From Syntrophobacterales bacterium (GTDB lineage Bacteria; Desulfobacterota; Syntrophobacteria; BM002): a stretch of 12,753 nt of DNA. Shown here one piece after another: positions 12 through 12,753 of this stretch (positions are counted from its first letter, which is position 1; each line of letters starts with the position of its first letter). The position numbers and the translations under genes were made by a program. A model generated the notes under the pieces. That model had not been told where the DNA came from and ran no database searches. It was given only the letters and a program-made list of their open reading frames with translations. The stretch is taken from the NCBI GenBank assembly GCA_030613915.1, contig JAUWKY010000021.1:1-12753 (forward strand), written 5' to 3'.

Positions 12-151
12 CAGAGGTAGGAGATCAGAGGTCAGAGGTCAGAAAGCAACCTGTAACATATAACGTATAACATATAACATCTCTTACTGTTCACCGTTCA
101 CCGTTCACCGTTTACCATTTACGATTCGACCAATCGACAAATTAACGAATG
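12..151. repeat. Degenerate heptanucleotide array upstream of ybgC
   Basis: The segment splits into 20 consecutive 7-nt units in one register. From position 12 these include CAGAGGT, AGGAGAT, CAGAGGT, CAGAGGT and CAGAAAG; from 54 TAACATA, TAACGTA, TAACATA and TAACATC; from 89 GTTCACC three times, then GTTTACC and ATTTACG. After about 124 the units (ATTCGAC, CAATCGA, CAAATTA) are only weakly related, so the true 3' edge is uncertain. At least three unit families follow each other without a break in the 7-nt step. The array occupies the space where a promoter and ribosome binding site for ybgC would be expected. Function unknown. Confidence 0.85.
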
Positions 152-595
152 AACGAAATGACTGAACCGTTTCGTGCAGAGCAGCGGGTTCTTTACGGCG
201 ACACGGACTCCATGGGAGTAGCCTATTACGCCAATTATTTGAGATGGTTTGAGATCGGTCGCACAGAGCTTTTCCGGAGGGTGGGAAGTACGTATCGACG
301 ATTGGAAGAGCAGGGTTGTTTCCTTCCTGTCTATGAGGCCTATTGTCGTTACCACAATCCTGCCCGCTATGACGATATCATTCGTATCGAAACCACCTTT
401 TCCTTTGCCGGAAAAGCAAGACTGCGTTTCGACTATGTGCTCCTGCACAAAGACAACGGGGCGGTCCTGGCTGAAGGATACACCGTGCATGTCTGTACTG
501 ACAAGGATGGCAAAGTACTCAAGCCCCCAGTTGAGTTAAAGCAGCTTCTTAAGGAAATGGAAGAAATGGCTAGAAGCGAGGGTAGTAAGAAGTAA
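149..595 (+). CDS. ybgC: YbgC/4HBT-family acyl-CoA thioesterase
   Basis: This 148-residue protein has the usual length of a single hot-dog-fold (4-hydroxybenzoyl-CoA thioesterase family) enzyme. Such enzymes hydrolyse acyl-CoA thioesters in the cytoplasm, and in proteobacteria YbgC is often linked to tol-pal and envelope lipid metabolism. The N-terminal motif YGDTDSMGVAYYANYLRWFE (residues 16-35) matches the family active-site signature with its conserved Asp; Tyr-Tyr stands where many YbgC proteins have Tyr-His. The start is uncertain: ATG 149 and ATG 158 (Met4) are both possible and neither has a clear Shine-Dalgarno sequence, because a 7-nt repeat array runs almost to the start codon. No tol or pal gene lies in the window, so the substrate cannot be inferred from neighbours. 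hisA follows after 49 nt on the same strand. Confidence 0.88.
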   Translation: MNEMTEPFRAEQRVLYGDTDSMGVAYYANYLRWFEIGRTELFRRVGSTYRRLEEQGCFLPVYEAYCRYHNPARYDDIIRIETTFSFAGKARLRFDYVLLHKDNGAVLAEGYTVHVCTDKDGKVLKPPVELKQLLKEMEEMARSEGSKK

Positions 596-644
596 TTAGC
601 GGTTTCTGAGAACAATGGAACGACGAGCGAAGTGAGTCGGCGAC

Positions 645-1385
645 ATGTTGATCATTCCAGCCATTGATTTGAAAGAAGGGAAATGTGTGCGGTTGGAGCG
701 GGGAGAAATGTCAACCGCCACCATTTATTCCGAGGACCCTGTAGCTACAGCCCAACGGTGGGAGGCTGAAGGGGCTCAATTGCTGCACGTGGTAGACTTG
801 GACGGTGCATTCGCCAAAGAACCCAAGAACCGTGAGGCCATCGCCGCCGTCGTGCAATCGGTAGACGTTCCAGTTCAATTAGGCGGAGGGGTGCGCACGG
901 TCGAAACTCTATCTGCCTATTTGGAACTTGGGGTTGAGCGCGTGGTGATTGGAACTGCCGCCCACAGTAATCCGGAATTGTTGGTGCAGGCGTGTGAGAG
1001 ATTTCCAGGGAAGGTGGTCCTCGGGATAGACAGCCGCAAGGGTCGAGTTGCCGTTGAGGGCTGGAGCAAAACCACTGAGATGGGTTCAGGGGAGCTTGCG
1101 GCCAGATTTGACAACCTGGCCCTGGCAGCTATCGTCTACACTGATATCTCGAGGGACGGCATGCAGACCGGTCCAAACGTCGAAGCAACCCGACAGTTGG
1201 CCCGGTCAGTGAGTACTCCTGTGATTGCCTCAGGAGGTGTGGGCAGCCTCGAGCACATCAGGGCACTGCTGCCGCTTGAACGAGACGGGGTGGTGGGGGT
1301 GATTGCCGGCCGGGCTTTGTATGCCGGGAGCGTGGATTTGGGCGAAGCCATCGCCTTGGCAAAAGGCAAAGCGCAAAGAGCATAG
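645..1385 (+). CDS. hisA: Phosphoribosylformimino-5-aminoimidazole carboxamide ribotide isomerase (HisA)
   Basis: HisA catalyses the Amadori isomerisation of ProFAR to PRFAR, the fourth step of histidine synthesis, on a cytoplasmic (beta/alpha)8 barrel. The 246 residues match the normal length. Visible signatures are the N-terminal IIPAIDLKEGKCVRL with catalytic Asp8, the phosphate-binding LGGGVR (residues 79-84), GIDSRKGRVAVEGW with the second catalytic Asp129, the YTDISRDGMQTG loop and the second phosphate motif ASGGVGS. It stands apart from other his genes here: ybgC precedes it and the rpsU operon follows. The ribosome binding site is weak. The last residues (GKAQRA) and the TAG stop are encoded by 7-nt repeat units (GCAAAGC, GCAAAGA, GCATAGC), so a repeat array appears to have replaced or extended the native C-terminus. 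Confidence 0.96.
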   Translation: MLIIPAIDLKEGKCVRLERGEMSTATIYSEDPVATAQRWEAEGAQLLHVVDLDGAFAKEPKNREAIAAVVQSVDVPVQLGGGVRTVETLSAYLELGVERVVIGTAAHSNPELLVQACERFPGKVVLGIDSRKGRVAVEGWSKTTEMGSGELAARFDNLALAAIVYTDISRDGMQTGPNVEATRQLARSVSTPVIASGGVGSLEHIRALLPLERDGVVGVIAGRALYAGSVDLGEAIALAKGKAQRA

Positions 1386-1455
1386 CGCCTGGCGTGAGTG
1401 GTAATAGGTTGACTACGGCAGGTGTAACGCTTTGCGCCATGCGCTATGCGTTATT
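1366..1455. repeat. Inverted pair of heptanucleotide arrays overlapping the hisA 3' end
   Basis: The left arm has the 7-nt units GCAAAGC (1366), GCAAAGA, GCATAGC and GCCTGGC. The right arm has CGCTTTG (1428), CGCCATG, CGCTATG and CGTTATT. The arms are opposed: 1380-1394 and 1435-1449 are complementary at 14 of 15 positions, giving a hairpin with a 40-nt loop just after the hisA stop. It has no adjacent T-run, so it is not a classic intrinsic terminator, but it could protect the hisA mRNA 3' end. The left arm lies partly inside hisA. Confidence 0.8.
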
Positions 1456-1467
1456 CTGACTTTTACG

Positions 1468-1495
1468 TTGACAATTTATTAAGAAAAGCTAAAAT
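1468..1495 (+). promoter_or_regulatory. Sigma-70 type promoter of the rpsU-yqeY-mutS2-dnaG-rpoD operon
   Basis: A perfect -35 TTGACA (1468-1473) is followed by a 16-nt AT-rich spacer and a -10 of TAAAAT (1490-1495). The start of transcription is predicted near 1502, giving a leader of about 139 nt before rpsU. It sits downstream of the hisA-associated repeat pair, which suggests the operon is transcribed independently of hisA. Confidence 0.8.
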
Positions 1496-1501
1496 TGTAG
1501 G

Positions 1502-1640
1502 TTTAAGTGCTCAGTTTCACAGCCATAGATGGCTAGACTTTTTGAAGGGGGGGATGGCTTGATGCCATTTTAGTCTGTCTGCAGAAGGGTTCCAGCCGAC
1601 AGGACGCCCACTCATACCCAGGTGAAGGGAGGGTGGGGGA
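1502..1640 (+). promoter_or_regulatory. Structured 5' leader of rpsU, possible attenuator
   Basis: The leader holds four short complementary segments: AGCCAT (1521-1526), ATGGCT (1529-1534), ATGGCT (1554-1559) and TGCCAT (1563-1568). Adjacent pairing gives two small hairpins, each followed by Ts (1539-1543 and 1568-1571). The first segment can pair with the third instead, and the second with the fourth, so alternative folds exist. A third small stem joins CTGTC (1575-1579) to GACAG (1598-1602). A strong purine-rich ribosome binding region (GGAGGGTGGGGGA) ends directly before the ATG. Regulation, for example by S21 itself, is inference only. Confidence 0.4.
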
Positions 1641-1844
1641 ATGCCGAATGTAGTGGTCAAATCGAGAGAATCGTTTGAAGCTGCTCTCAGACGTTTTAAA
1701 AAAGAATGTCAAAAGGAGGGCATCCTTTCCGAGGTCCGCAAGAGAAAACATTACGAGAAACCCAGTGTTAGGAAGAAAAGGAAAGCACTGGCTGCTAAGA
1801 GGCGGGCGCTGAAGCGGATGCGCAAGTTGGGACAAAGACAATGA
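1641..1844 (+). CDS. rpsU: 30S ribosomal protein S21
   Basis: This 67-residue, strongly basic protein starts [20 protein letters not shown] and continues with the S21 pattern of a central [18 protein letters not shown] stretch and an Arg/Lys-rich tail. E. coli S21 has 71 residues. S21 binds the 30S platform near the anti-Shine-Dalgarno end of 16S rRNA and aids initiation. It is the first gene of the operon, behind the promoter at 1468-1495 and a strong ribosome binding site. Its TGA stop overlaps the yqeY ATG (ATGA, 1841-1844), which indicates translational coupling. rpsU heading an operon with primase and the primary sigma factor is the classic macromolecular synthesis arrangement. Confidence 0.96.
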
Positions 1845-2287
1845 GTCTCCAGGAGCAAATTAGTGCAGCTTTAAAGGATGCCATGCGGGCGAGGGATGAG
1901 GTCAAAATGGCCACCCTGCGCCTTGTGCTTACTGCCATCAAGAACCGGGAAAAAGAGGCTCGCAGCCTCCTTGAGGATCAAGAGGTGATCTCGGTTATCA
2001 CCACCCAGATCAAACAGAGGCGAGAATCCATAGAGCAATATCGCCAAGCCGGCAGGGAGGATTTAGCCCAAAGGGAAGAGAGCGAACTTCAGATATTGCA
2101 AGGTTATATGCCGGAGCAGGTCTCCGAAGAAGAAATATCAAACACACTTGACGAGATTATCGCCGAGGTAGGTGCTGTCAGCATGAAGGACATGGGTAAA
2201 GTAATGAAGGCAGCCATGGCCAAGCTGGCGGGCAAGGCAGAGGGCGGGGCGATAAATGCAATGGTCAAGGAAAAACTTTCGAGCTGA
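1841..2287 (+). CDS. yqeY: GatB/YqeY domain protein
   Basis: A 148-residue protein with the full length and pattern of the YqeY family: an N-terminal helical half ([20 protein letters not shown], then [10 protein letters not shown]) and a C-terminal tail domain containing [18 protein letters not shown] and [13 protein letters not shown]. The C-terminal half resembles the tRNA-binding tail of the GatB subunit of Glu-tRNA(Gln)/Asp-tRNA(Asn) amidotransferase. The role of the free protein is not settled; a tRNA-related function is inferred from that similarity. The start overlaps the rpsU stop by 4 nt. The position between rpsU and the primase/sigma genes is common for this family. Confidence 0.94.
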
Positions 2288-2289
2288 CT

Positions 2290-2350
2290 CCGGTTTCTCA
2301 ACAAGAACCATTTCTCACTTCGCTTTTCCTTCAAAGGTGAGAGAACCCGG
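2290..2350 (+). promoter_or_regulatory. Hairpin in the yqeY-mutS2 gap
   Basis: CCGGTTTCTC (2290-2299) and GAGAACCCGG (2341-2350) are complementary at 9 of 10 positions. Inside the loop, TCTCAC (2313-2318) can pair with GTGAGA (2337-2342), slightly overlapping the outer stem. No T-run follows, so it looks like an mRNA processing or stability element rather than a terminator. Function is unproven. Confidence 0.35.
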
Positions 2351-2379
2351 CCTTCGGTCTCTCCCCGACATGGAGTGAT

Positions 2380-4827
2380 ATGGATCACCAGTCTCTTCGT
2401 GTCCTTGAATTTCCGCATGTTCAGAGCTTTCTGTACTCACTCGCCTTCACTGACCCGGGACGGCAAGCAACGACACAGGTCCGTCCGAGCGCGGACCGAG
2501 AGCAAATCCAAGTTTGGCTTGATCAGGTAACCGAACTCAAGGAATACCTGCAAATAGGCAATCCACTCCCTCTTGGTGGTATCCATGAGCTGGAGCCGAT
2601 TATCGATAGACTCAGGAGCACCGGGGAAGTTTTGTCGCCGGCCGAGCTTCTTGAGGTAGCAGAGACCGCAAAGGCGGCTCGCACCCTCCAGCAGTTGGTG
2701 AGCAGTTGCGAACCACGGTACAGCAGGCTGGCCGAATTGTTGGACAATCTGCAGCCAATTCCGGAGTTGGAAAAGAAGATCAGCCGCGCCATTGCCCAGC
2801 GGGGTCATATAAAAGATGGGGCAAGTCCGGAGCTTTCGCGAGTTAGAAAAGAAATTGGTGAGCTGCGCAAAAGGCTCCAGGCGGAACTCACTGAAGTTCT
2901 TGAGAGGCAGGCTTCACAGAAAACGCTCCGGGAGAAGCTCATCACCGTCCGTAACGACAGGTTGGTAATCCCTCTTCGAAGCGACGCCAAAGGGGCGCTG
3001 GAAGGCATAGTTCACGATACTTCCCACAGTGGTGCCACCTGTTTCGTGGAACCACTGTCTGTTGTCCCCCTCAACAACCGGCTGAGACAAGGCCGTAGTC
3101 GAGAAAGGGAAGAAGAGGCTCGCATTCTCCGGGAATTAACCGATGCGGTGATAACTGCAGCGGAGGTGCTCCTTCATAACGAGCGCTGGCTGGGGGTTAT
3201 TGACTGCGTGCACGCCAAGGTCCGATTGAGTTCTCTCCTCCTTGCCCGTGCACCCAAGTTGAATGACGGCCTCAGGATGCGGCTGCAGCAGGCTTCCCAT
3301 CCTATTCTAGCATTACAGGAACGGGCGCAGAAGACGTCTACTCTACCGGTCGAACTGGCTGAGATGGTGTCGGGGGCTGAACTTACAGAAACTCGAAAAT
3401 CTGATCACATCGAAGTTGTGCCCATTGATCTGCATCTCGATGAAAAGCAGAAGACCTTGATTATCAGCGGTGCCAACACCGGTGGTAAGACGGTATCTCT
3501 CAAGACTTTGGGTCTTCTTGGAGTCATGGTCCAGGCCGGACTGCACGTCCCGGTTGCTGATGGCAGCGAATGGCCGGTGCTCACAGGCATATTTGCCGAA
3601 ATAGGTGACGAACAGGACGTGAGGGCTCACCTGAGCACATTCTCGGCTAAGGTCCAAAGATTGGTGCACATGCTGAAGCAGGTGGACAACCGATCTCTTG
3701 TCCTGCTGGACGAAATCGGCACAGGAACCGATCCAGCAGAGGGGGCTGCCCTGGCCCTGGCTGTACTGGACCAATTCCGTGGCCGCGGCGCTTTTGTGGC
3801 TGTTACCACGCACTACCACCTGATTAAGGCTTACGGCATGCTCCATCAGGGGGTGGAGAATGTGTCGGTGGCTTTTGATGAAGAGAACAGCCGGCCTACC
3901 TATCAGTTGCGTTATGGTCGTCCCGGCACCAGCAACGCCTTTGAGATCGCTGCCGACCTTGGCATGCCACCGAAGATTATCGAAGAGGCAAGAGACCATC
4001 TGGATCCCGGCGAAGGTCAGACCATTGACCTTATCAAGCAACTGACTGAAGCCTGGGACAGAACCAGGAATGAAGAAGAAAAACTTATACTCCAGCAACA
4101 GCGGTTGGAATTGGCCGAGGCGAGTTTGGCCCGGGAACGTAAAGGCTTTGTCCAATCTCGAGAAGAGATTCTCAGTGAACTGAGACAGCAGAGCGAGGGC
4201 ATGCTCACTGAGGCTGAAAAAGAGCTGAAATCGGGAATAGCCAGCTTGCAACAGGGCGGAATGCGTAAGGCGATGGCAGTCCGAAAGAAGGTCAGGGAGA
4301 TCAGGGAAGAGCTTAGTTCTGCACTGGAGTCGCAAAGCGAGCGAGAGGACAAAGGAGTGATGCCCTCTGCGGAAGGGCAGCTGGTGCGTTTGCGAACCGT
4401 GGGTGGCAGGGGTACCTTGCTCAAGATCAAGGACCATGGGCGCCGTGCAGAGGTGCAAATGGGTCCAAAGCGTGTGGAAGTTGACATGGAATCCCTGGAA
4501 CTCCTTCCAGACGAAAAGAGTGCGAGCGCTAGAGCGCATCGATCCAACTCCATTAGAGTTTTTCGCCAGGAGCCTGAAGCCTGCCAGCAACGGCTGCATC
4601 TGGTCGGTCTTAGGGTTGATGAGGCAATCCCCTTACTGGACAAAACAATTGATCGGGCGATACTGGATGGTTACAACCAGATCCATGTTGTTCATGGACA
4701 CGGCACCGGGAGACTTCGCCAGGCGGTGCAGGAATTCCTCACTGAGCATGCTATAGTCAAAGGATTTCACGCCGAGAAACAGGGTGCTGGAGGCACCGGG
4801 GTTACGGTTGTAGAACTCAAGGACTGA
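2380..4827 (+). CDS. mutS2: MutS2 ATPase with Smr nuclease domain
   Basis: The 815-residue length and domain order fit MutS2. An N-terminal helical core/clamp region is followed by the MutS-type ABC ATPase with Walker A GANTGGKT (residues 364-371) and Walker B LVLLDEIGTGTDP (Asp444-Glu445). A long charged coiled-coil stretch (about 540-660), a KOW-like region (about 670-710) and a C-terminal Smr domain follow. The Smr domain carries LHLVGLRVDEA (739-749) and HGHGTGRLR (from His772). MutS2 lacks the mismatch-recognition domain of MutS. Family members have been shown to limit recombination by acting on branched DNA or, in Bacillus, to bind and split collided ribosomes. The ribosomal neighbours fit the second role but do not prove it. 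The start is ATG 2380 with GGAG at 2372-2375, a rather short 4-nt spacing. A repeat-filled gap follows. Confidence 0.95.
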   Translation: MDHQSLRVLEFPHVQSFLYSLAFTDPGRQATTQVRPSADREQIQVWLDQVTELKEYLQIGNPLPLGGIHELEPIIDRLRSTGEVLSPAELLEVAETAKAARTLQQLVSSCEPRYSRLAELLDNLQPIPELEKKISRAIAQRGHIKDGASPELSRVRKEIGELRKRLQAELTEVLERQASQKTLREKLITVRNDRLVIPLRSDAKGALEGIVHDTSHSGATCFVEPLSVVPLNNRLRQGRSREREEEARILRELTDAVITAAEVLLHNERWLGVIDCVHAKVRLSSLLLARAPKLNDGLRMRLQQASHPILALQERAQKTSTLPVELAEMVSGAELTETRKSDHIEVVPIDLHLDEKQKTLIISGANTGGKTVSLKTLGLLGVMVQAGLHVPVADGSEWPVLTGIFAEIGDEQDVRAHLSTFSAKVQRLVHMLKQVDNRSLVLLDEIGTGTDPAEGAALALAVLDQFRGRGAFVAVTTHYHLIKAYGMLHQGVENVSVAFDEENSRPTYQLRYGRPGTSNAFEIAADLGMPPKIIEEARDHLDPGEGQTIDLIKQLTEAWDRTRNEEEKLILQQQRLELAEASLARERKGFVQSREEILSELRQQSEGMLTEAEKELKSGIASLQQGGMRKAMAVRKKVREIREELSSALESQSEREDKGVMPSAEGQLVRLRTVGGRGTLLKIKDHGRRAEVQMGPKRVEVDMESLELLPDEKSASARAHRSNSIRVFRQEPEACQQRLHLVGLRVDEAIPLLDKTIDRAILDGYNQIHVVHGHGTGRLRQAVQEFLTEHAIVKGFHAEKQGAGGTGVTVVELKD

Positions 4828-4877
4828 GCGCAGTCCGCTCCGCGCCCTGCGCAGCTAGCAGCAGACAGCATGTATAT

Positions 4878-5120
4878 TTCGGATTTCGGATTGCGGATTT
4901 AACTCGTCCTCGTTCTTGATATCGAGCAATGGAAGTTGATGGAAATTACAAATAACAAATCACAAATAACAAACAAATATCAATGACCGAAATTCAAAAT
5001 TCCAAACCCTTGCATCATATTAATAAAAGAGAATTCTAAACATGTTTTGGTTATTGGATTTTGGAATTTGAGATTTATTTGTAATTTGGTGCTTGAGATT
5101 TGGGATTTCGGATTTCAAAA
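4878..5120. repeat. Three heptanucleotide arrays in the mutS2-dnaG gap
   Basis: The first array, 4878-4898, is TTCGGAT, TTCGGAT, TGCGGAT. The second, 4949-5004, is CAAATAA, CAAATCA, CAAATAA, CAAACAA and then decayed units ending AATTCAA, AATTCCA. The third, 5044-5120, has eleven 7-nt units in one register, from GTTTTGG, TTATTGG, ATTTTGG to TTGAGAT, TTGGGAT, TTCGGAT, TTCAAAA. The second and third arrays are opposed: AAATTACAAATAA (4943-4955) has an exact inverted copy at 5075-5087. The 35-45 nt between them include TTGCAT at 5010, a possible weak -35, but no convincing promoter. The gap before 4878 holds only a short GC-rich hairpin (4828-4833/4847-4852) without a T-run. Confidence 0.8.
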
Positions 5121-5144
5121 AAAAAGCAGAAAACAGAGATTCTA

Positions 5145-5175
5145 CTGTGGGAGCGGCTTTCAGCCGCGATTCGAA
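5145..5175. repeat. REP-like palindrome
   Basis: A short GC-rich word beginning CTGTGGGAGCGG contains the perfect hairpin GCGGCT (5153-5158), loop TTC, AGCCGC (5162-5167), and ends CGATTCGAA. Its form resembles the GTGGGAGCGGCT-type repetitive extragenic palindromes found in many copies in several proteobacterial genomes. Only one copy occurs in this window, so repetition here is not shown. Confidence 0.5.
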
Positions 5176-5216
5176 CAACTTCTACGCCTATTACGATTTC
5201 AACGATTTACCTATTA
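5172..5216. repeat. Nonanucleotide array before dnaG
   Basis: Units of 9 nt follow each other: CGAACAACT (5172), TCTACGCCT (5181), ATTACGATT (5190), TCAACGATT (5199) and TACCTATTA (5208). The unit closely matches the TCTACGATT series at 12532-12567 upstream of ispF. The array ends 25 nt before the dnaG start. Confidence 0.7.
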
Positions 5217-5229
5217 CTTTAATCGCCAT

Positions 5230-5235
5230 GGAGGG
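5230..5235 (+). promoter_or_regulatory. Ribosome binding site that fixes the dnaG start
   Basis: GGAGGG lies 6 nt before ATG 5242. It decides the start: the reading frame is open further upstream to 5047, but that extension only translates the intergenic repeats. Confidence 0.85.
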
Positions 5236-5241
5236 CGATTA

Positions 5242-7062: not shown

Positions 7063-8831
7063 TGGCTAAAAAAAGCAATATGGAAGATCTTAGGCGGCTT
7101 ATCTCGATTGGCAAAGAAAAGGGATACCTTACCTATGACGAGGTGAATAGTGTCCTGCCTGACGAGCTCGTATCCTCGGAGAAGATCGACGACATGATGA
7201 TGATTTTCGATGAGATGGACATTGAGATCGTCGATTCCTCTCAACAGGCAAAGATGCTCAAGGAAAAGATCGAGAAAGATGGCGAGGCCAGCGAAGAGGA
7301 AGATCGAGCCCTGCCATTGGATGATGATAGCGGAGGCAGGGTGACTGACCCGGTCAAAATGTATCTTCGCGAGATGGGCATGGTCTGTCTCTTGACCAGA
7401 GAGGGAGAGGTAGAGATAGCCAAGCGGATCGAACGGGGCGAGGAGGAAGTGATTGACGCCATTATTGCCACCCCGATTGGTGTTCGCGTGATTCTTAACT
7501 TGCGTGAGAAGATCGCTCTAGAGAAACTGAGGGTCCGTGACGTCCTAAAAAATCTGGACGAGGATTTTGAAGAATATAGCAGTGCGAAGGAAGACAAGGA
7601 GAAGGAAAGGTTACTTGAGTTACTGGAGGAAATTCAGCAGCTGTATGAAGAAAACCTCAAGATGGAGGAGTTCATCCTGACAAGCAGTGCTGAAGGTAAA
7701 TCACGGGAAGCAGATGAGGAAGCCCTGCGGGTCAGCAAGGAACGCATTGCCGAGTTGCTCAAGAACCTGCGTTTGGAGAGGCGGCAGGTGGACAGGATTG
7801 TGAGCAAACTGCGGAGTTGTGTGGAGAGAATAGAGAAAGGCGAGCGGGAGATCGAGCAGTGCATGATCCGCACCGGTAAGCCAGTTCAAGAACTTCGTCG
7901 CCTTTTCCGACATGTAAAGAGCAAGCCTGATTCATTGGCCAAAATCGCCAAAGATCTTGGCCTTAAGCCAGATGAATTCTTAGAGATGGAAAAAACTATC
8001 AAGAACGGCCGGCGCCGCATGCGGCGGATTGGTCAGGAAGCCAAAATGGATGTCCGCAGCTTGAAGCAAATTATGCGTCAAGTTGACGCGGGTGAGCTCA
8101 AAGCCAAAGAGGCAAAGAGGGAGTTGGTGGAGGCCAACCTGCGGTTGGTGGTAAGCATAGCCAAAAAATATACCAACAGAGGGCTACAGTTTCTTGACCT
8201 GATTCAGGAGGGGAACATCGGCCTGATGAAGGCAGTGGACAAGTTTGAATATCAGCGGGGCTACAAGTTCAGTACCTACGCCACCTGGTGGATCCGCCAG
8301 GCGATTACCAGGGCCATTGCCGACCAGGCCAGAACCATTCGCATTCCTGTGCATATGATCGAGACCATTAATAAACTCATCCGGACATCACGATACCTTG
8401 TTCAGGAATTGGGGAGGGAGCCAACACCTGAAGAGATAGCTGATAAGATGGAATTTCCCTTGGAGAAGGTGAGGAAGGTTCTGAAGATTGCCAAAGAGCC
8501 CATCTCACTGGAAACTCCCATCGGCGAGGAGGAAGACAGCCATCTAGGTGATTTCATTGAAGATAAAAAGGTAACATCTCCAGTGGATGCGGTCATCAAT
8601 CTGAACCTCTCTGAGCAAACGCGCAAAGTGCTTTCCACCCTGACCCCCCGAGAGGAAAAGGTGCTGCGCATGAGGTTCGGCATAGGGGAGAAGGCGGATC
8701 ATACTCTAGAGGAGGTGGGCCAAGATTTTCTGGTAACCAGGGAGCGTATCCGGCAGATCGAAGCCAAGGCCCTGAGAAAGCTTCGACACCCCAGCCGGCG
8801 CAAGAAACTCAAGAGTTTTATTGATAGCTGA
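7062..8831 (+). CDS. rpoD: RNA polymerase primary sigma factor (sigma-70, RpoD)
   Basis: This 589-residue group 1 sigma factor directs RNA polymerase to housekeeping promoters. Region 1.1 lies at about 7-58. Region 1.2 begins near 95 ([12 protein letters not shown]). A long, highly charged non-conserved region of about 130-350 follows, typical of proteobacterial RpoD. Regions 2.1-2.4 span about 355-433 ([41 protein letters not shown]). Region 3 spans about 434-510 and region 4 about 524-589, with [18 protein letters not shown] and the helix-turn-helix [20 protein letters not shown]. The start chosen is ATG 7062, which overlaps the dnaG TGA and has AAGGGGGAG 8 nt upstream; a TTG at 7059 is less likely. 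The well-preserved regions 2.4 and 4.2 agree with the TTGACA/TATAAT-like promoters seen at 1468 and 8908. Confidence 0.98.
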
Positions 8832-8907
8832 TGACAGCGTTGGAGCTGGGAGAAAGGAATCGAAGCCGGGCGGCGGCGGGGAGACAACAACCGCGGGGAT
8901 ATTTCCC

Positions 8908-8936
8908 TTGACAAAGAAGATTGCGGCCCATATATA
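8908..8936 (+). promoter_or_regulatory. Strong sigma-70 promoter of the tRNA unit
   Basis: TTGACA (8908-8913), a 17-nt spacer and TATATA (8931-8936) make a near-consensus promoter about 77 nt after the rpoD stop. Transcription should start near 8943, leaving a leader of about 60 nt with a small hairpin (ATACC 8957, GGTAT) before the mature tRNA. No clear intrinsic terminator separates rpoD from this promoter. Confidence 0.85.
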
Positions 8937-9003
8937 AACAAAACTCCCGGCGACAAATACCGTTGAATGGTATTGAAATCATTATCTTGGAGGTGGAGGC
9001 AAA

Positions 9004-9079
9004 GGGCCCATAGCTCAGCTGGCAGAGCCACCGGCTCATAACCGGTCGGTCCCTGGGTCGAATCCAGGTGGGCCCACCA
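9004..9079 (+). tRNA. tRNA with CAT anticodon (Met elongator or Ile2), CCA encoded
   Basis: A 76-nt cloverleaf folds cleanly. The 7-bp acceptor stem is GGGCCCA/TGGGCCC, the D stem GCTC/GAGC, the anticodon stem ACCGG/CCGGT with loop CTCATAA (anticodon CAT), the variable loop 5 nt, and the T stem CCTGG/CCAGG. CCA is encoded. It is not the initiator, since base pair 1-72 is G-C and the anticodon stem lacks the three G-C pairs beside the loop. The C4-G69 and C5-G68 pairs are compatible with a tRNA-Ile2 whose C34 becomes lysidine through TilS, so Met and Ile2 cannot be separated with certainty. The T-loop reads GTCGAAT: G replaces the nearly universal T54. Confidence 0.93.
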
Positions 9080-9084
9080 GTTAC

Positions 9085-9246
9085 TGCTTATGAAGATTGG
9101 AGTCAAACCAGAGCGTGAATTTTCTCGACCCGTTGAGAGGAAGATATGGCTTCTCGGCGGGGAACAGGGATCGGTCCCGCAATCTGAGGCCGAAATTCCG
9201 AGAGACTCGGAAAAAAGGGTGCGCCACACAGGCTGCACCCTTTTTT
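9085..9246 (+). ncRNA. Possible structured RNA downstream of the tRNA
   Basis: The stretch between the tRNA and the terminator has no convincing coding sequence but several adjacent hairpins: GAAG/CTTC (9140-9153), GCGGG/CCCGC (9157-9180) enclosing GGGA/TCCC, and TCCGAG/CTCGGA (9197-9211, loop AGA). It would be transcribed from the tRNA promoter and end at the strong terminator. It may be a processed trailer or a small RNA; I do not recognise the family. Confidence 0.3.
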
Positions 9247-9247
9247 T
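9211..9247 (+). terminator. Rho-independent terminator of the tRNA unit
   Basis: AAAAAAGGGTGC (9211-9222) pairs with GCACCCTTTTTT (9235-9246), the loop can be extended by GCC/GGC, and the run of Ts continues to 9247. The A-run makes it potentially bidirectional. It is the clearest intrinsic terminator in the window. Confidence 0.92.
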
Positions 9248-9317
9248 GTGCCAAGGTTGGGAGCCAATCCTATGGTTGGGCCAACATCAAAATCGCTTGG
9301 TTCAAGGGAACGTCCCT

Positions 9318-9397
9318 GGAGTACCGGAGTCATGGAGTACCGGAGTCATGGAGTACTGGAGTGATGGAGTATTAGAGTGATGGAGTATTAGAGTGAG
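9318..9397. repeat. Octanucleotide array (GGAGTNNN)
   Basis: Ten 8-nt units run in register: GGAGTACC, GGAGTCAT, GGAGTACC, GGAGTCAT, GGAGTACT, GGAGTGAT, GGAGTATT, AGAGTGAT, GGAGTATT, AGAGTGAG. The alternation also gives five 16-nt units. An inverted relic (CTCCATTACTCCATT) lies at 9568-9582. Confidence 0.9.
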
Positions 9398-9430
9398 AAG
9401 CATTCCAGATAACAAGTCACAATCACTAAG

Positions 9431-9530
9431 GTTTCAGTGTTCAGGTTTCAGTGTTCAGGTTTCGGCTTTTTTGTTTCTCTTCCCTGACACCTGAAACCTG
9501 ACACCCAAATGACACCCGGCACCTGAAAGC
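9431..9530. repeat. Opposed heptanucleotide arrays
   Basis: The left arm is GTTTCAG (9431), TGTTCAG, GTTTCAG, TGTTCAG, GTTTCGG. The right arm is CCTGACA (9483), CCTGAAA, CCTGACA, CCCAAAT, GACACCC, GGCACCT. CAGGTTTCAG (9442-9451) is an exact inverted copy of CTGAAACCTG (9491-9500). A T-rich loop lies between the arms. With the octamers at 9318-9397 and their inverted relic at 9568-9582, the gap forms a nested palindrome. Nothing else is recognisable between 9248 and 9590. Confidence 0.85.
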
Positions 9531-9601
9531 CTGAGATTTGGTGTTTGGAATTTGTTATTTCCAATGCTCCATTACTCCATTTGAGAATAGGGAGGAATAC
9601 C

Positions 9602-10339
9602 TTGCAAGAGACGTTACAATTACTTATTGAGCTTCAGGAAATCGAAGGAAAGATCAAGATTCTTGCGGAGCACAAAGCTCGCGCTCCCAAGGAGATCGCC
9701 GCGCTGAAAAAGAAAGAAAAGGAGGCTGAGGCGAGGCTGGAAGACAAAAAGATGATACTGCAGTCTGGGAAGAAATTGCGGCGGGATCTGGAGGTAGAGG
9801 TGGAGGACCTAGAAGGGCGAAAAACCAAAAGCAAGCAGAAGCTTTTGGAGGTCAAGAGCAACAAGGAGTATCAGGCCAGCTTGAAAGAGATCGACGACAT
9901 TGAAGAGCTTGTGCGAGGGCGTGAAGACCAGATCATCGAGCAGATGGAGAGCGCCGATGATCTGGATAGGCAGATCCGGGAGCACAAGCTGTTGGTGGTC
10001 GAGGCCAGCAAGAAACTAAAAGAGGAGGGTGCCCAGCTTGAAAAGGAGGCGAAGAAGGCAGATGCGCTGATTATGAGTCTTGAAGAACAGAAAGAGCAGC
10101 TCAAACCCAAAATTCCTTCAGATTTGCTGAAAAAGTACCGATTTCTAAGAGATAAAAGAGCTGGTGTGGCGCTGGCCCCGGTGAACAGAGGCACCTGCGG
10201 GGTTTGCCACATGAACTTGCCCCCGCAGACCTTTATCGATTTGCAAAGAAATGAAAAAATGATGAACTGTCCCAATTGCCTGCGGATTATTTATTGGACA
10301 GGTCACGAGGCATATAAGCAGTCGTCCCAGTTGGAGTAG
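9602..10339 (+). CDS. Coiled-coil protein with C-terminal C4 zinc ribbon (DUF164/CT398-like)
   Basis: The start is TTG 9602, chosen because GGAGG (9591-9595) lies 6 nt upstream and the family-like N-terminus QETLQLLIELQEIEGKI begins there; the frame upstream to 9545 translates repeats. The 245-residue product has a long Lys/Glu-rich antiparallel coiled-coil hairpin (about 5-180) and then a four-cysteine zinc ribbon, CGVC (Cys199, Cys202) and CPNC (Cys223, Cys226), in the context GTCGVCHMNLPPQTF and MMNCPNCLRIIYW. This matches the bacterial zinc-ribbon family that includes chlamydial CT398/CdsZ. The biochemical role is poorly known; nucleic-acid or protein-complex scaffolding is inferred from the fold. 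rnhA follows after 18 nt, so the two are probably co-transcribed, and RNase P RNA comes next. Confidence 0.9.
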   Translation: MQETLQLLIELQEIEGKIKILAEHKARAPKEIAALKKKEKEAEARLEDKKMILQSGKKLRRDLEVEVEDLEGRKTKSKQKLLEVKSNKEYQASLKEIDDIEELVRGREDQIIEQMESADDLDRQIREHKLLVVEASKKLKEEGAQLEKEAKKADALIMSLEEQKEQLKPKIPSDLLKKYRFLRDKRAGVALAPVNRGTCGVCHMNLPPQTFIDLQRNEKMMNCPNCLRIIYWTGHEAYKQSSQLE

Positions 10340-10357
10340 GGAAAGGGATTTACGTTA

Positions 10358-11014
10358 ATGGGTTCAAGAATCGCACTTGATCGTCAGCGGCTCATTCGGG
10401 TTCTCGAGCTGCTGGGTGAGCGTTTGCCCACTGAGCTACTCCGAGCCGAATTTCCCGATCTTACCAGGAAAGATCTGCGCAGCCTCTTCCAGGCTGTCGC
10501 CGAACACCTACGTTGCTGTGAAGAATGGACTGACCCTGCGGCTGATAGCCAGGAAGGGGGGCCCGGCACGCGAATGATGAGTGTTTCTCTTTACTGCGAT
10601 GGAGCTTCAAGGGGCAATCCGGGTCCCTCCGGAGCAGGAGTGGTCCTTCTGGATGAGAAGGGTGAACAGGTTTTTGAACTAAGTCGCTATCTCGACAATG
10701 GCACTAATAACGAAGCAGAATACCGGGCCCTTGTAAGGGGACTGGAGGCTGCGGCAGACCTGGGTGTCAAGCGGATTGAGATATTTTCGGACTCTGAACT
10801 GGTGGTGAGACAGTTAAGCGGAAAGTATAAGGTACGCAATCCTCGATTGCGGTCATTGTTTGACCAGGCCGTGTCAAGATTGCAGCAGTTTGACGATTAT
10901 GCTATTTTTCATGTAGGCCGTGAACTGAATCAACAGGCTGATCGGTTGGCGAATGAGGCCATAGATCGTGGCCTGCAGGGGGGAGATAGAGAGACATATC
11001 GCTTGGTGCGGTGA
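10358..11014 (+). CDS. rnhA: Ribonuclease HI with N-terminal extension
   Basis: The RNase H domain fills residues of about 74-205. It has the four metal-binding acidic residues: Asp81 in YCDGASRGNPGPSG, Glu119 in NNEAEYRAL, Asp145 in FSDSELVVRQL and Asp195 in NQQADRLANEA. It cleaves the RNA strand of RNA-DNA hybrids, which removes primers and R-loops. The domain is of the compact type (LSGKYKVRNPRL) and lacks the basic handle region of E. coli RNase HI. About 72 extra N-terminal residues (RQRLIRVLELLGERLPTELL onward) look helical and are not the classic HBD domain. ATG 10358 has a rather distant GGGAAAGGG. A restart at Met73/Met74 (10574) would give the bare catalytic domain. The TGA stop (11012-11014) touches the first base of the RNase P RNA closing stem. 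Confidence 0.93.
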   Translation: MGSRIALDRQRLIRVLELLGERLPTELLRAEFPDLTRKDLRSLFQAVAEHLRCCEEWTDPAADSQEGGPGTRMMSVSLYCDGASRGNPGPSGAGVVLLDEKGEQVFELSRYLDNGTNNEAEYRALVRGLEAAADLGVKRIEIFSDSELVVRQLSGKYKVRNPRLRSLFDQAVSRLQQFDDYAIFHVGRELNQQADRLANEAIDRGLQGGDRETYRLVR

Positions 11015-11416
11015 GAATAGAGTAGGTCAAATGATCGCTGCCTCGTGCTTGCCGTTTTTCGGCGGCCGGGGGAGAGGAAAGTCCGAGCTCCATAGGGCAA
11101 GGTGCTGGGTAACGCCCAGTCCCGGTGATGGGAAGGAAAGTGCCACAGAAAGCAGACCGCCTCGGGAAACGTTTGTTTCCCGAGGTAAGGGTGAAACGGT
11201 GAGGTAAGAGCTCACCAGCTCCGGTGGTGACATCGGAGGCTCGGCAAACCCCACTTGGAGCAAGACCAAATAGGAGAGCGTTGAGGGTGGCCCGCCCAAG
11301 CTCTCGGGTAGGTCGCTGGAGGCTGCGAGTAATCGTGGTCCTAGATGAATGATCATTGTCCATTGGGGAGTGATCCCCGAAGGAAACAGAACTCGGCTTA
11401 TGACCTGCTCTATTCT
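11014..11416 (+). ncRNA. rnpB: RNase P RNA, bacterial type A
   Basis: This is the catalytic RNA of RNase P, which matures tRNA 5' ends. Hallmark conserved blocks are present in order: GAGGAAAGTCCGAGCTCCAT (about 11074), GGTAACGCC (11107), the GAAAGTGCCACAGAAAGCAG block, GTAAGGGTGAAACGGTGAGG, GGTAAGAGCTCACCAG, GGAGCAAGACCAAATAG (about 11257), CCTAGATGAATGATCATTG (about 11340) and CAGAACTCGGCTTATGACC. The closing P1 helix pairs 11014-11029 with 11401-11416 (16 pairs, one G-U). The P12 hairpin is an 11-bp stem, CCTCGGGAAAC/GTTTCCCGAGG. The ends are set by P1 and are approximate. The 5' end coincides with the rnhA stop, so any own promoter lies inside rnhA; I see no consensus one there. Confidence 0.97.
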
Positions 11417-11425
11417 CTTTTTTTT
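11401..11425 (+). terminator. Terminator formed by RNase P RNA P1 and a T8 run
   Basis: The 3' strand of P1 (11401-11416) is followed by a C and eight Ts (11418-11425). The mature closing helix plus T-run would act as the transcription end of rnpB, although its 5' strand is nearly 400 nt away, so efficiency is uncertain. Confidence 0.55.
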
Positions 11426-11452
11426 GTCTACAGAATCCTCATGCCCCTATTA

Positions 11453-11650
11453 ACCCTAATGTTGCATACCTACAACGGTAAAAACCGCTGCGCTCGCGTG
11501 ATAGTCCCGCCTTTGGCGGGACGGCTGTGCTCGCCTCGGACAGGACTTCACGTACGGTTAAGTACGCCTCGTCCTGTCCTAGCCTGTGCGCAGCCACATC
11601 TGACGCACTCTTGCGCGTTTTTCCTCGACATAGGTATGCAACATTAGGGT
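11453..11650. mobile_element. MITE-like non-autonomous element with 20-bp terminal inverted repeats
   Basis: ACCCTAATGTTGCATACCTA (11453-11472) is repeated exactly, inverted, at 11631-11650, giving a 198-bp element. Weaker complementarity continues inward (AAAACCGC... against ...GCGCGTTTTTC). Inside are a hairpin GTCCCGCC/GGCGGGAC (11504-11522) and a larger stem GGACAGGAC (11538-11546)/GTCCTGTCC (11571-11579) that encloses CGTAC/GTACG (11551-11566). No transposase is encoded, so it would be mobilised in trans. An abutting target duplication is not evident; CCCTATT occurs at 11445-11451 and again at 11659-11665, but the second copy is 8 nt from the repeat end. It fills most of the rnpB-ispD gap. 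Confidence 0.75.
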
Positions 11651-11684
11651 AAACCCATCCCTATTTCCGAAGCGTAGAACAGTT

Positions 11685-12380
11685 ATGCGTGTTGTTGCCA
11701 TAATTCCAGCCGCTGGTGAGGGACGACGTTTGGGTGGAACTGTTGAAAAGCAGTTTCTGCATCTGCAAGGAATTCCTGTTCTCGCCCACACACTTGAAGT
11801 GTTTGATAAGAGCCCTGAGGTTGACGGGGTGGTGCTGGTGGTAGCCCCGCAACAGCGCCAAACCCTGAAGGAGCGTGTTCTCGGACCCTATCCTTGTCGT
11901 AAGTTGCTCGGGGTGGTGGACGGTGGTTCGGAACGTCAAGATAGCGTGGCCCGTGGGCTCGAGGTAGTCCCAGGTGATTGCGAACTGGTTGTAGTTCATG
12001 ACGGCGTGCGGCCACTCGTAAGTGTCGATCTACTGGGGGCAGTGCTGGAGGCCGCCAATCGCCATGGTGCCGCACTAGCAGCCGTACCCGCAGGTGACAC
12101 TGTGAAAAGGGCTAAAGAGGAAGTGGTGGTTGAGACCTTGGAACGCGAAACCATCTGGTTGGCGCAGACGCCCCAGGCTTTTCAAGCCAGCCTTTTGCGG
12201 TTAGCGTATGAGAAGGCTTCCCGGGATAAGATGATGGTCACTGACGATGCTGCCCTGGTGGAAAGTCTGGGAGTTTCGGTGCATTTGGTCCCGGGATCTC
12301 CGGAGAATATCAAGGTCACTACGCCAACAGACCTGGTGGTGGCGGAAGCGATTCTTGCTCATAGGGAGGGGAGACAGTAG
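11685..12380 (+). CDS. ispD: 2-C-methyl-D-erythritol 4-phosphate cytidylyltransferase
   Basis: IspD transfers CMP from CTP to MEP, giving CDP-methylerythritol in the non-mevalonate isoprenoid pathway. The 231 residues match the family. Visible motifs are the CTP-binding IIPAAGEGRRLGG (6-18) with Lys22 in EKQFL, HDGVRPLV with Asp106 and Arg109, GDTVK with Thr139 or close by, QTPQAF (161-166), TDDAALVE (187-194) and GSPENIKVTTPTDL with Lys210. There is no strong Shine-Dalgarno before ATG 11685. The gene stands 34 nt after a MITE-like element; no convincing promoter was seen. The TAG stop is followed within 2 nt by a 7-nt repeat array. ispF lies downstream, and ispD/ispF adjacency is common, including fused forms. 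Confidence 0.96.
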   Translation: MRVVAIIPAAGEGRRLGGTVEKQFLHLQGIPVLAHTLEVFDKSPEVDGVVLVVAPQQRQTLKERVLGPYPCRKLLGVVDGGSERQDSVARGLEVVPGDCELVVVHDGVRPLVSVDLLGAVLEAANRHGAALAAVPAGDTVKRAKEEVVVETLERETIWLAQTPQAFQASLLRLAYEKASRDKMMVTDDAALVESLGVSVHLVPGSPENIKVTTPTDLVVAEAILAHREGRQ

Positions 12381-12382
12381 GA

Positions 12383-12487
12383 AGAGGTCAGAGGTCAAGA
12401 AATCAGAGGTCAGAAGGCAGAGGTCAGCAGGCAGCCAGCAGCGGGCAGTGTCGTTATCCGTTATTAGTTATTCGATTTCGGAAGATC
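12383..12487. repeat. Heptanucleotide array after ispD
   Basis: Fifteen 7-nt units in one register: AGAGGTC twice, AAGAAAT, CAGAGGT, CAGAAGG, CAGAGGT, CAGCAGG, CAGCCAG, CAGCGGG, CAGTGTC, then GTTATCC, GTTATTA, GTTATTC and decayed GATTTCG, GAAGATC. The CAGAGGT family is shared with 12-46, and the GTTAT family is the complement of the ATAAC units at 54-81. It begins 2 nt after the ispD stop. Confidence 0.85.
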
Positions 12488-12513
12488 TGTCGCTATGAGT
12501 TGCCTTGACGACT

Positions 12514-12615
12514 TGTAGGATTCTTAAGACTTCTACGATTTCTACGCCTTCTACGGTTTCTACGATTTACTGCTTACTGCTCACTGCTCACTGATTACCG
12601 ATTACTATTTGACTT
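12514..12615. repeat. Nonanucleotide then heptanucleotide array before ispF
   Basis: Units of 9 nt (TCTACGATT 12532, TCTACGCCT 12541, TCTACGGTT 12550, TCTACGATT 12559, with decayed units before them) pass directly into 7-nt units: TTACTGC (12567), TTACTGC, TCACTGC, TCACTGA, TTACCGA, TTACTAT. The latter belong with the TTCACCG units at 90-116. The array ends 25-32 nt before ispF. Confidence 0.85.
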
Positions 12616-12639
12616 ATCTTTGAACGTGGAACCCAGAAT

Positions 12640-12753
12640 ATGATACGAGTAGGATTCGGATACGATGCGCATCGGTTGGTGCCGGGTAGGCCTTTGATTC
12701 TTGGCGGTGTGGCTATTCCGTACGACCATGGTTTAGATGGCCACTCAGATGCT
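12640..12753 (+). CDS. ispF: 2-C-methyl-D-erythritol 2,4-cyclodiphosphate synthase (N-terminal part)
   Basis: Only the first 38 codons are in the window; the frame is open at the end. The sequence has the diagnostic N-terminus [20 protein letters not shown], with metal-binding Asp9 and His11, and then GLDGHSDA, the start of the motif that carries the next active-site residues. IspF converts CDP-ME 2-phosphate to the cyclic diphosphate MEcPP in the same pathway as IspD. ATG 12640 fits the family N-terminus; the upstream GTGGA is a modest ribosome binding site. A 259-nt repeat-filled gap separates it from ispD. Confidence 0.95.

Follow-up and report, generated by a model that had tools for sequence, protein, structure and literature searches.

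Which process gives short tandem repeats of different sequence a common step, and how could the ends of an element retain their period while losing their sequence? These questions are raised by a 12,753-nt stretch of DNA, referred to here as the window (contig JAUWKY010000021.1 of assembly GCA_030613915.1, from a Syntrophobacterales bacterium; G000:C318:1-12753 in our numbering). An earlier note, made from the sequence alone, had described five of its intergenic gaps as carrying degenerate arrays that share a 7-nt step and differ in their units. The source genome is 2.25 Mb in 351 contigs and is 79% complete. We found that genes of the family PF05635 (23S rRNA-IVP, or "four helix bundle protein"; IVP below) often lie between two such arrays, inverse to each other, in bacteria and archaea of many phyla. 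The window looks like the gene-less form of this association, and its arrays are probably, for the most part, remnants or derivatives without the gene of array-armed small IVP insertion elements, relatives of the 23S intervening sequences.

The short step in the window and its genome

Nine of the 12 gaps (those >40 nt; three of <20 nt were left out) were compared at lags 3–21 with 200 dinucleotide shuffles each. As the note had claimed, five of the nine showed a strong self-match at lag 7 that exceeded the shuffles: gaps 1–148 (z +9.4), 4828–5241 (+7.8), 9083–9602 (+3.3) and 12381–12640 (+8.1), together with gap 1386–1640, where z was +2.3 and the best segment was equalled by 0/200 shuffles. 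Gaps 596–644, 2288–2379, 8832–9006 and 11421–11684 had no lag-7 excess in the same test. The 8-nt and 9-nt sections that had also been described are real, at 9317–9396 (8/16 nt) and 12531–12568 (9 nt). Tandem Repeats Finder recovers the same arrays, and their units are unlike from gap to gap while the step is common, as had been stated.

A wider sample of the genome, the window plus contigs C1–C20 of the 351 (143 kb), held 40 lag-7 segments at a threshold of 11, whereas three first-order Markov copies averaged 1.0. Lag 8 gave 8 segments against 0.7, lag 9 gave 11 against 0, and lags 5, 6, 10 and 11 gave 0, 3, 1 and 0. An assembly artefact is ruled out, because single-contig genomes and complete plasmids carry the same kind of array.

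In three gaps the arrays form inverted pairs: 1380–1394/1435–1449 (93%), 4943–4955/5075–5087 (100%) and, in gap 9083–9602, both 9423–9451/9484–9512 (76%) and 9348–9368/9560–9580 (81%). The same search found no pair in 12381–12640 except a short palindrome, and none in 1–148, which is truncated by the contig edge. Among the called arrays of the genome, an inverse partner was present in 4/15 neighbouring pairs, compared to 3.8% at random.

PF05635 genes between inverse arrays

Two genes of this genome match PF05635. The first is flanked by GGTTGGA arrays and by their inverse, CCTCCAA; the second is truncated by a contig end, followed by a GTTCGAT array. The family was present in 30 of the 40 genomes searched, this one included. 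In a set of relatives (30 usable of 31 loci; array threshold 11), arrays of step 7–9 nt lay ≤400 bp from the PF05635 gene on either side in 29/30 loci and on both sides in 22/30, with other steps in 2/30. PIN genes from the same set of genomes, taken as a control, had arrays on either side in 5/30 and on both in 0/30. For a many-phyla set we took, from a GTDB contig scan, the best 80 loci among the matches listed (78 usable, archaea and the candidate phyla radiation included); arrays were found on either side in 68/78 and on both in 49/78 (other steps 10/78), compared to 8/61 and 0/61 (other steps 8) in the distant flanks of the same loci, at 900–1200 bp. Cyanobacterial plasmid regions gave 18/18 and 13/18 (other steps 6/18), where the 18 were hand-picked from 58 hit rows, some from related plasmids, and were scored within 150 bp at a threshold of 9 rather than 11. 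A fourth set, 41 of the 56 remaining matches from the 40-genome search, gave 38/41 and 30/41. Summed over the four sets, with their unlike thresholds and flank lengths, at least one side has an array in 153/167 loci and both sides in 114/167. The association of PF05635 genes with inverse short-step arrays is wide and, as far as searched, unreported: in open-licence PubMed Central we found no published link to tandem arrays of PF05635 or of PDDEXK_3, a second family described below.

A full cassette is ~0.5–1 kb long and consists of one open reading frame (ORF) of ~120 codons between two facing arrays with a unit of 7 nt, less often 8 or 9. The encoded proteins are mostly basic (median isoelectric point 9.2, range 6.0–9.8, n = 25), crystal entries 2gsc and 2rld have five chains each, and homology of PF05635 to Avd of diversity-generating retroelements has been noted (PMC10053308). 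These properties fit nucleic-acid binding by an oligomer.

Could the IVP gene be an ordinary operon gene, such as a CRISPR accessory, and the arrays its own terminator or attenuator hairpins? The genes are sense-oriented inside operons, 75:6 by crude ORF calls, and recur in cas loci, where the literature reports them as CRISPR-Cas-associated in function (PMC3936711). In the orientation count, which also took in PIN genes, 14/31, 12/80, 5/18 and 13/30 loci were not judgeable. We consider this very unlikely, as the hosts are unrelated (cas, ribonucleotide reductase, Tra/Trb and secretion genes), one orthologous site carries two different IVPs or none, and a terminator needs neither tandem structure nor unit sharing. 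Four-helix-bundle genes in the neighbourhood of cas genes or diversity-generating retroelements may be inserts and not parts of those systems (PMC3936711, PMC10910872, PMC10053308).

Two side observations concern the surroundings of the gene. At L289, L297 and L299 a PF05635 gene with adjoining arrays is found between cas6 and cas4 (two cyanobacterial plasmids) or between cas10 and cmr3 (the third plasmid), and these genes are likely inserts in CRISPR operons. On a 16-kb contig (L335, G038:C197), three matches to PF05635 and four to the PIN domain lie near one another and may be a cassette cluster.

Two arms with one unit

In most loci the two arms share a locus-specific unit in inverse orientation, and the order of its variants is usually not mirrored. 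The left/right inverse match had a mean of 25.8 in the relatives set compared to 10.8 for mismatched pairs, and of 20.7 compared to 10.2 in the many-phyla set, where 59/78 loci were above the 95% point. The step could be called in 91/111 loci and was 7 in 67, 8 in 19 and 9 in 5. Mirrored variant order reached p ≤ 0.05 in 3/62 loci (median p 0.66) in a unit-order shuffle that has little power for short arrays; exact inverted-repeat ends, which this shuffle does not support, were rejected. Read as the 5' arm, the 7-nt arms are G-rich and C-poor (G 0.33, C 0.12), with G>C in 109/125 and G<C in 15/125 (several arms per locus). The G-rich strand therefore points to the gene from both sides.

G-rich strands running 5' to 3' toward the centre on both sides, a unit common to both arms whose order mostly is not, and several units in series within one gap would suit templated end extension, in which a telomerase-like enzyme copies a short RNA template onto both 3' ends of a break and the cassette is sealed between them. 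The homology to Avd also connects PF05635 with a reverse transcriptase system (PMC10053308). However, slippage of an ancestral inverted repeat would erase unit order too, the three loci that seem to retain some order (L160, L180 and L022) equal the chance expectation, and beyond the facing G-rich ends nothing else yet speaks for the putative repeat addition. We regard this route as quite unlikely. More generally, a fixed-step copying process alone, which the earlier note had entertained, leaves the gene between the arms unaccounted for.

Step, unit and protein subfamily

On the protein tree of the IVPs, loci of equal step group together, with 17 changes against a shuffled mean of 22.1 and 0/200 shuffles as low; this tree has 87 rows, few columns and many unresolved forks, and near-copies add to the clustering. 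Units follow the protein as well. In pairs of loci without homologous flanks, unit similarity was >0.7 in 23/138 pairs with protein similarity ≥0.6 (mean 0.555), compared to 11/1583 with protein similarity <0.2 (mean 0.442), and 0/500 permutations gave as high a protein–unit mean in the flank-filtered pairs. Flank homology was judged by DNA or encoded protein over a median of 2.3 kb per locus; a first filter had covered ~150 bases per side beyond the arms for 39 loci, and the result held when it was repeated on wider stretches with protein matches. GCATAGA/GCATAGG arms, for example, accompany proteins 82–86% alike at L307, L325, L027 and L327 (G003, G005 and two sites of G008), where no pair has homologous flanks within 2.5–5.4 kb. 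This set comes closest to evidence for movement with the arms. With the step clustered on the tree, the 'protein that reads spacing' of the earlier note is conceivable.

Among 14 cassette pairs, four were near-identical and the other 10 too diverged for indels to be read. One of the four had no indel. In the remaining three the arrays differed by 8 nt at step 8, 7 nt at step 7 and 14 nt at step 7, so that the indels were whole units in 3/3 cases. Compared with L020, L017 has by eye an extra 7-nt unit, but the aligner put gaps elsewhere. In the single-contig genome of L017, a run of Ns adjoins the IVP gene on its right flank, perhaps an unassemblable array or a masked stretch.

Whole-unit indels also fit neutral slippage, in which the replicative polymerase, through its footprint, drives heptamer expansion, and IVP genes simply insert into such arrays or persist near them. 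Heptamers are over-represented in the simple repeats of many bacteria, for which a polymerase-footprint cause has been proposed (PMC4692102), and gene-less arrays greatly exceed IVP genes in the genome of the window. We nevertheless think slippage rather unlikely as the explanation. IVP arms occur in seven genomes (G009, G010, G013, G020, G029, G038 and G039) whose sampled 15–58 kb have no other lag-7 array, the two arms share their unit in inverse orientation, unit and step track the protein subfamily also where flanks are not homologous, and steps of 8 and 9 nt misfit a single footprint.

At the level of the element, our data show an association of a gene, inverse arms and a shared unit, with step and unit tied to the protein. 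As for the interpretation given in the earlier note, the shared period stands, as do the expectation that unit number changes by whole steps and the parallel with cyanobacterial heptamer repeats (all 18 plasmid regions had 7–9-nt arrays, at the lower threshold). The array system is not peculiar to this genome, since its kind is widespread across phyla, and the period is not the only common trait, since the arrays form inverted arm pairs and their unit tracks the protein subfamily of the cassette.

Turnover within the genus

The genes that border the gaps of the window are, as we take them from their translations, a ybgC-type thioesterase gene, hisA, rpsU, yqeY, mutS2, dnaG, rpoD, genes for a C4-type zinc ribbon protein and an RNase H-type protein, ispD and ispF; a tRNA-Met and the RNase P RNA are also present among these housekeeping genes. 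The orthologous gaps were compared in up to eleven relatives. A two-layer palindrome is found in the yqeY–mutS2 gap of G002 only, and the ybgC–hisA gap has a palindrome in G007 and none in the window. Before the zinc ribbon gene, there are TGGAGTAC/AGGTTTC arrays in the window, TTTCGGA in G007, TGGAGTAC in G008 and none in G004, and by eye the terminator and ribosome-binding region are kept across relatives. One further site in four sister species carries unlike IVP cassettes in G003 and G006 and gene-less states in G005 and G002; remnants of the GCGCTATG type lie at its right edge. Thus, sites are reused and units change within the genus.

This turnover bears on a regulatory role, in which the arrays would bind an RNA- or DNA-binding regulator, as has been proposed for TAACTGA repeats near start codons in Beggiatoaceae (PMC4679880). 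As the orthologous gaps compared in sister species have no arrays or have other units, there is no conserved site or unit, and the association with PF05635 genes is left unexplained; a regulatory origin is accordingly most improbable.

Origin of the window arrays

Four of the 10 window arrays are near cassette-arm units of sister species, namely TGGAGTAC (L322, 0.80), TTCGGAT (L309, 0.85), and GCGCTATG and GCGCAAAG (L321, 0.83 and 0.73). Across genomes, we counted 1 lag-7 array in 352 kb from 10 genomes without PF05635 and 100 in 617 kb from 16 genomes with it, where lags 5, 6, 10 and 11 together gave 8 and 19. Array density correlates with IVP count over these 26 genomes (Spearman 0.49, p 0.011), a figure confounded by kinship.

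A number of observations weigh against an origin of the window arrays from IVP elements. Within the genome, no PF05635 gene was found in the contig of the window (C318), and two matches stand against several hundred arrays, as extrapolated from 143 kb. The remaining 6/10 window arrays have no close IVP arm unit in the genus (0.39–0.62). Among 55 arrays of the genome, 27% had a similarity ≥0.75 to a genus IVP arm, compared to 11% with an equal number of arms from other phyla. Gene-less arrays of the genus had an inverse partner above the 95% control in just 25/96 cases (~5 expected), and their polarity was 17:8. Of the 100 lag-7 arrays, 94 are in the genus of the window and 6 in G019, and seven other IVP-bearing genomes had none in 15–58 kb each. 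Array abundance is therefore a genus trait, the contrast between genomes with and without PF05635 is confounded by kinship, and the presence of IVP is not in itself enough to make arrays abundant in a genome.

Further points on this side concern the cassettes themselves. Units common to genus mates raised the mismatched control of the fourth set (95% point 24.8), and 16/41 loci exceeded it. For 7/62 cassettes, the best array on the left and the best on the right barely match (score 4 or less) and do not share the unit. No common motif was found among the arm units; a single hidden circular motif was rejected, as it scored 2.07 bits for step 7, where controls reached up to 2.02, and was within controls for steps 8 and 9. 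Outside the arms, a test for nested shells gave a negative result, with 5/69 exceeding the 95% point, and the overall protein–unit correlation is weak (Spearman 0.14). Since PIN genes share the bias toward sense orientation (7:2), this bias was discarded as proof of a route at the RNA level. In the literature, one 23S intervening sequence probably does not produce its IVP in vivo (PMC4990558), most Xanthomonas repeats have the same neighbouring genes in both genomes compared, and the GGGGA(C/T)T repeats of a Nostoc strain are mostly unpaired and absent from its plasmids (PMC4692102).

Individual arrays and other features of the window

The cluster at 1–148 (no strand assigned), cut by the contig start, contains CAGAGGT (12–43), TAACATA (54–80) and GTTCACC (89–116), all of step 7, and has no close match among genus IVP arms (best similarity 0.39). 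GGTGAAC/GTTCACC reappears as the inner arms of the gene-less palindrome in the yqeY–mutS2 gap of G002. The next array, 1366–1455, is short and weak, and its left portion overlaps the 3' end of hisA (645–1385). Its 5' arm, of unit GCAAAGCGC/GCATAGCGC and step 7 (1358–1394, plus strand), is 0.73 similar to the arms of IVP cassette L321 of sister species G006; the 3' arm (1428–1454, minus strand) is its inverse, with a 15-nt core 93% complementary, and reaches 0.83 to L321.

In the following gap, a TTCGGAT array of step 7 (4876–4899, plus strand) matches the GATTGCG arms of IVP cassette L309 at 0.85. A CAAATAA/AAATTCC arm of step 7 (4943–5006, plus strand; best IVP arm 0.53, not close) is complementary to stretches within 5060–5111. 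These belong to 5045–5116 (minus strand), an inverse arm together with a TTCGGAT segment in direct orientation to 4876–4899; here 5047–5137 has a best IVP arm of 0.40 (not close). Beside these arrays, at about 5100–5190 (the hairpin at about 5145–5180), lies GTGGGAGCGGCTTTCAGCCGCGATTC, a hairpin that resembles a repetitive extragenic palindrome (REP). It has much the same surroundings in the ispD–ispF gap of G001, so the piece is shared between unrelated gaps.

Gap 9083–9602 has two layers. The outer 5' arm, TGGAGTAC with step 8 (9317–9396, plus strand), is 0.80 similar to the arms of IVP cassette L322 of G006, which is the same cassette as L317 of G007, at a homologous site. The outer 3' arm, CTCCATTACTCCAT with step 8 (9560–9581, minus strand), has a unit identical in inverse at 8/8 positions to 9318–9394. 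Between them are the inner 5' arm, AGGTTTCAGTGTTC with step 7/14 (9429–9463, plus strand), and the inner 3' arm, CCTGAAACCTGACA with step 7 (9483–9512, minus strand), with an inverse match of 76% over 29 nt and 84% over 19 nt; the best IVP arm for 9433–9505 is at 0.54 (not close).

The last gap has three arrays, all on the plus strand. A CAGAGGT/CAGCAGG array of step 7 (12383–12448) and a TTCTACGAT array of step 9 (12531–12568) were detected by both the lag test and the repeat finder. By eye, the first has units like those in the arms of L305, L017, L020 and L320, yet the scored similarity of the whole stretch 12383–12472 to L305 is merely 0.45. The third, a TTACTGC array of step 7 (12567–12606), scores best with L320 (0.62) and by eye resembles arm GTAAGCAGTAAGC of L340, a cassette from another genus. 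These by-eye matches (CAGAGGT, CAGCAGG and TTACTGC) thus score just 0.45–0.62.

Two further kinds of insert were observed. A palindromic insert at 11447–11660, with ends like TTAACCCTAATGTTGCATACCTA, has arms at 11450–11488/11615–11653 (79% complementary) and no 7-nt step, and is missing from the orthologous gap of G001 (473 compared to 670 nt). It looks like a miniature inverted-repeat transposable element (MITE) or the remnant of an insertion sequence. Inserts with ends like TAGCCCGGATATTTCATGAAT occur at L133 and L139, in G001 (upstream of the tRNA) and in G004 (downstream of the RNase P RNA), and are another small element of the genus.

A second gene between inverse arrays

PDDEXK_3 (GxxExxE) genes of the relatives (L052–L081) often lie between inverse arrays of step 8–12. 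At the 28 usable loci of 30, steps of 7–9 were found on either side in 16, on both in 5, and other steps in 7. The inverse match was 19.8 compared to 11.7, and some units, ACCGCAGAG and ACAGGAT among them, are found at more than one locus. It is possible that these loci form a second cassette family, with a nuclease-type gene between inverse 8–12-nt arrays.

A possible mechanism

How might such an element persist? We propose that it travels together with its arms. As both arms share a repeated unit, they could pair in any register, and the transcript would fold the insert out as a long hairpin, which, on the model of the 23S intervening sequences, would be cut by RNase III; insertion within operons would then be tolerable. 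Slippage by whole units would keep each array homogeneous while the unit drifts, and binding of the arms by an IVP oligomer may hold the step. Loss of the gene and repeated insertion at the same sites could then produce the mixed arrays of the genus.

As cassette leftovers, the arrays may supply a source for the long-puzzling heptamer repeats of bacteria. The heptamer excess, TAACTGA, the short tandem repeats (STRR) of cyanobacteria and the question of where 23S intervening sequences come from all count as unexplained in the literature (PMC4692102, PMC4679880, PMC2670836, PMC4990558), and one family of array-armed elements could unite heptamer repeats with 23S intervening sequences and give PF05635 a context. 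Tentatively, we can go further and imagine a hitherto unnamed class of mobile elements in bacteria and archaea, whose ends would be self-renewing short-step arrays, and in which an oligomeric Avd-like protein might dictate the step (7, 8 or 9) and leave the unit free to drift or be rewritten. Orphan heptamers (in cyanobacteria, Xanthomonas, Beggiatoaceae and the genus of the window) and 23S intervening sequences would be its footprints, and the PDDEXK_3 family might be built on the same plan.

Comparison with known systems

CRISPR arrays have repeats of ~20–50 nt and unique spacers, whereas the arrays of the window have a period of 7–9 and no spacers. REP elements with their associated transposases (RAYT) are palindromes of 20–40 nt accompanied by a Y1 transposase, and a diversity-generating retroelement consists of a reverse transcriptase with template and variable repeats. 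The likeness to the latter lies in Avd, which is homologous to PF05635 (PMC10053308). MITEs and other elements with terminal inverted repeats are, like the window arrays, short, gene-less and intergenic, with inverse ends. They differ in that the ends here are arrays rather than inverted copies, with unit order mirrored no more than by chance (3/62), and the only cassette gene seen is PF05635, which is not a known transposase.

Cyanobacterial STRR, GGGAATC of Xanthomonas and TAACTGA of Beggiatoaceae have the step of 7 and the mostly intergenic location. The window arrays are degenerate tandem heptanucleotides between genes, as STRR are, but their kind occurs in many phyla besides the filamentous cyanobacteria that host STRR. 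TAACTGA repeats are known from Beggiatoaceae, cyanobacteria and Bacteroidetes (Gramella and Aequorivita among them; PMC4679880), one STRR of Nostoc forms hairpins (PMC2670836), and GGGAATC forms 70 and 75 neighbouring opposite-strand pairs, convergent as the arms here are, in two Xanthomonas genomes (PMC4692102). In contrast to our data, these reports, as far as examined, name no gene between the arrays, describe one or two units each, and find few pairs in the Nostoc strain.

The proposed relatives are the intervening sequences of 23S rRNA, which contain one PF05635-type (S23) ORF whose complementary flanks pair in a long stem, are sporadically distributed and are suspected to be mobile or selfish (PMC4990558; PMC11270868); they are cut by RNase III (PMC4990558). 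As far as scanned, location sets the cassettes apart: no match to ten 23S/16S motifs, with two mismatches allowed, was found in the part of the IVP loci that was scanned (flanks ≤1.5 kb). The cassettes likewise have an S23/PF05635 ORF between complementary ends, and the gaps of the window have the ends without such an ORF. In contrast to the intervening sequences, the arms of the cassettes are tandem short-step arrays with locus-specific units, and ORF-less derivatives abound in one genus.

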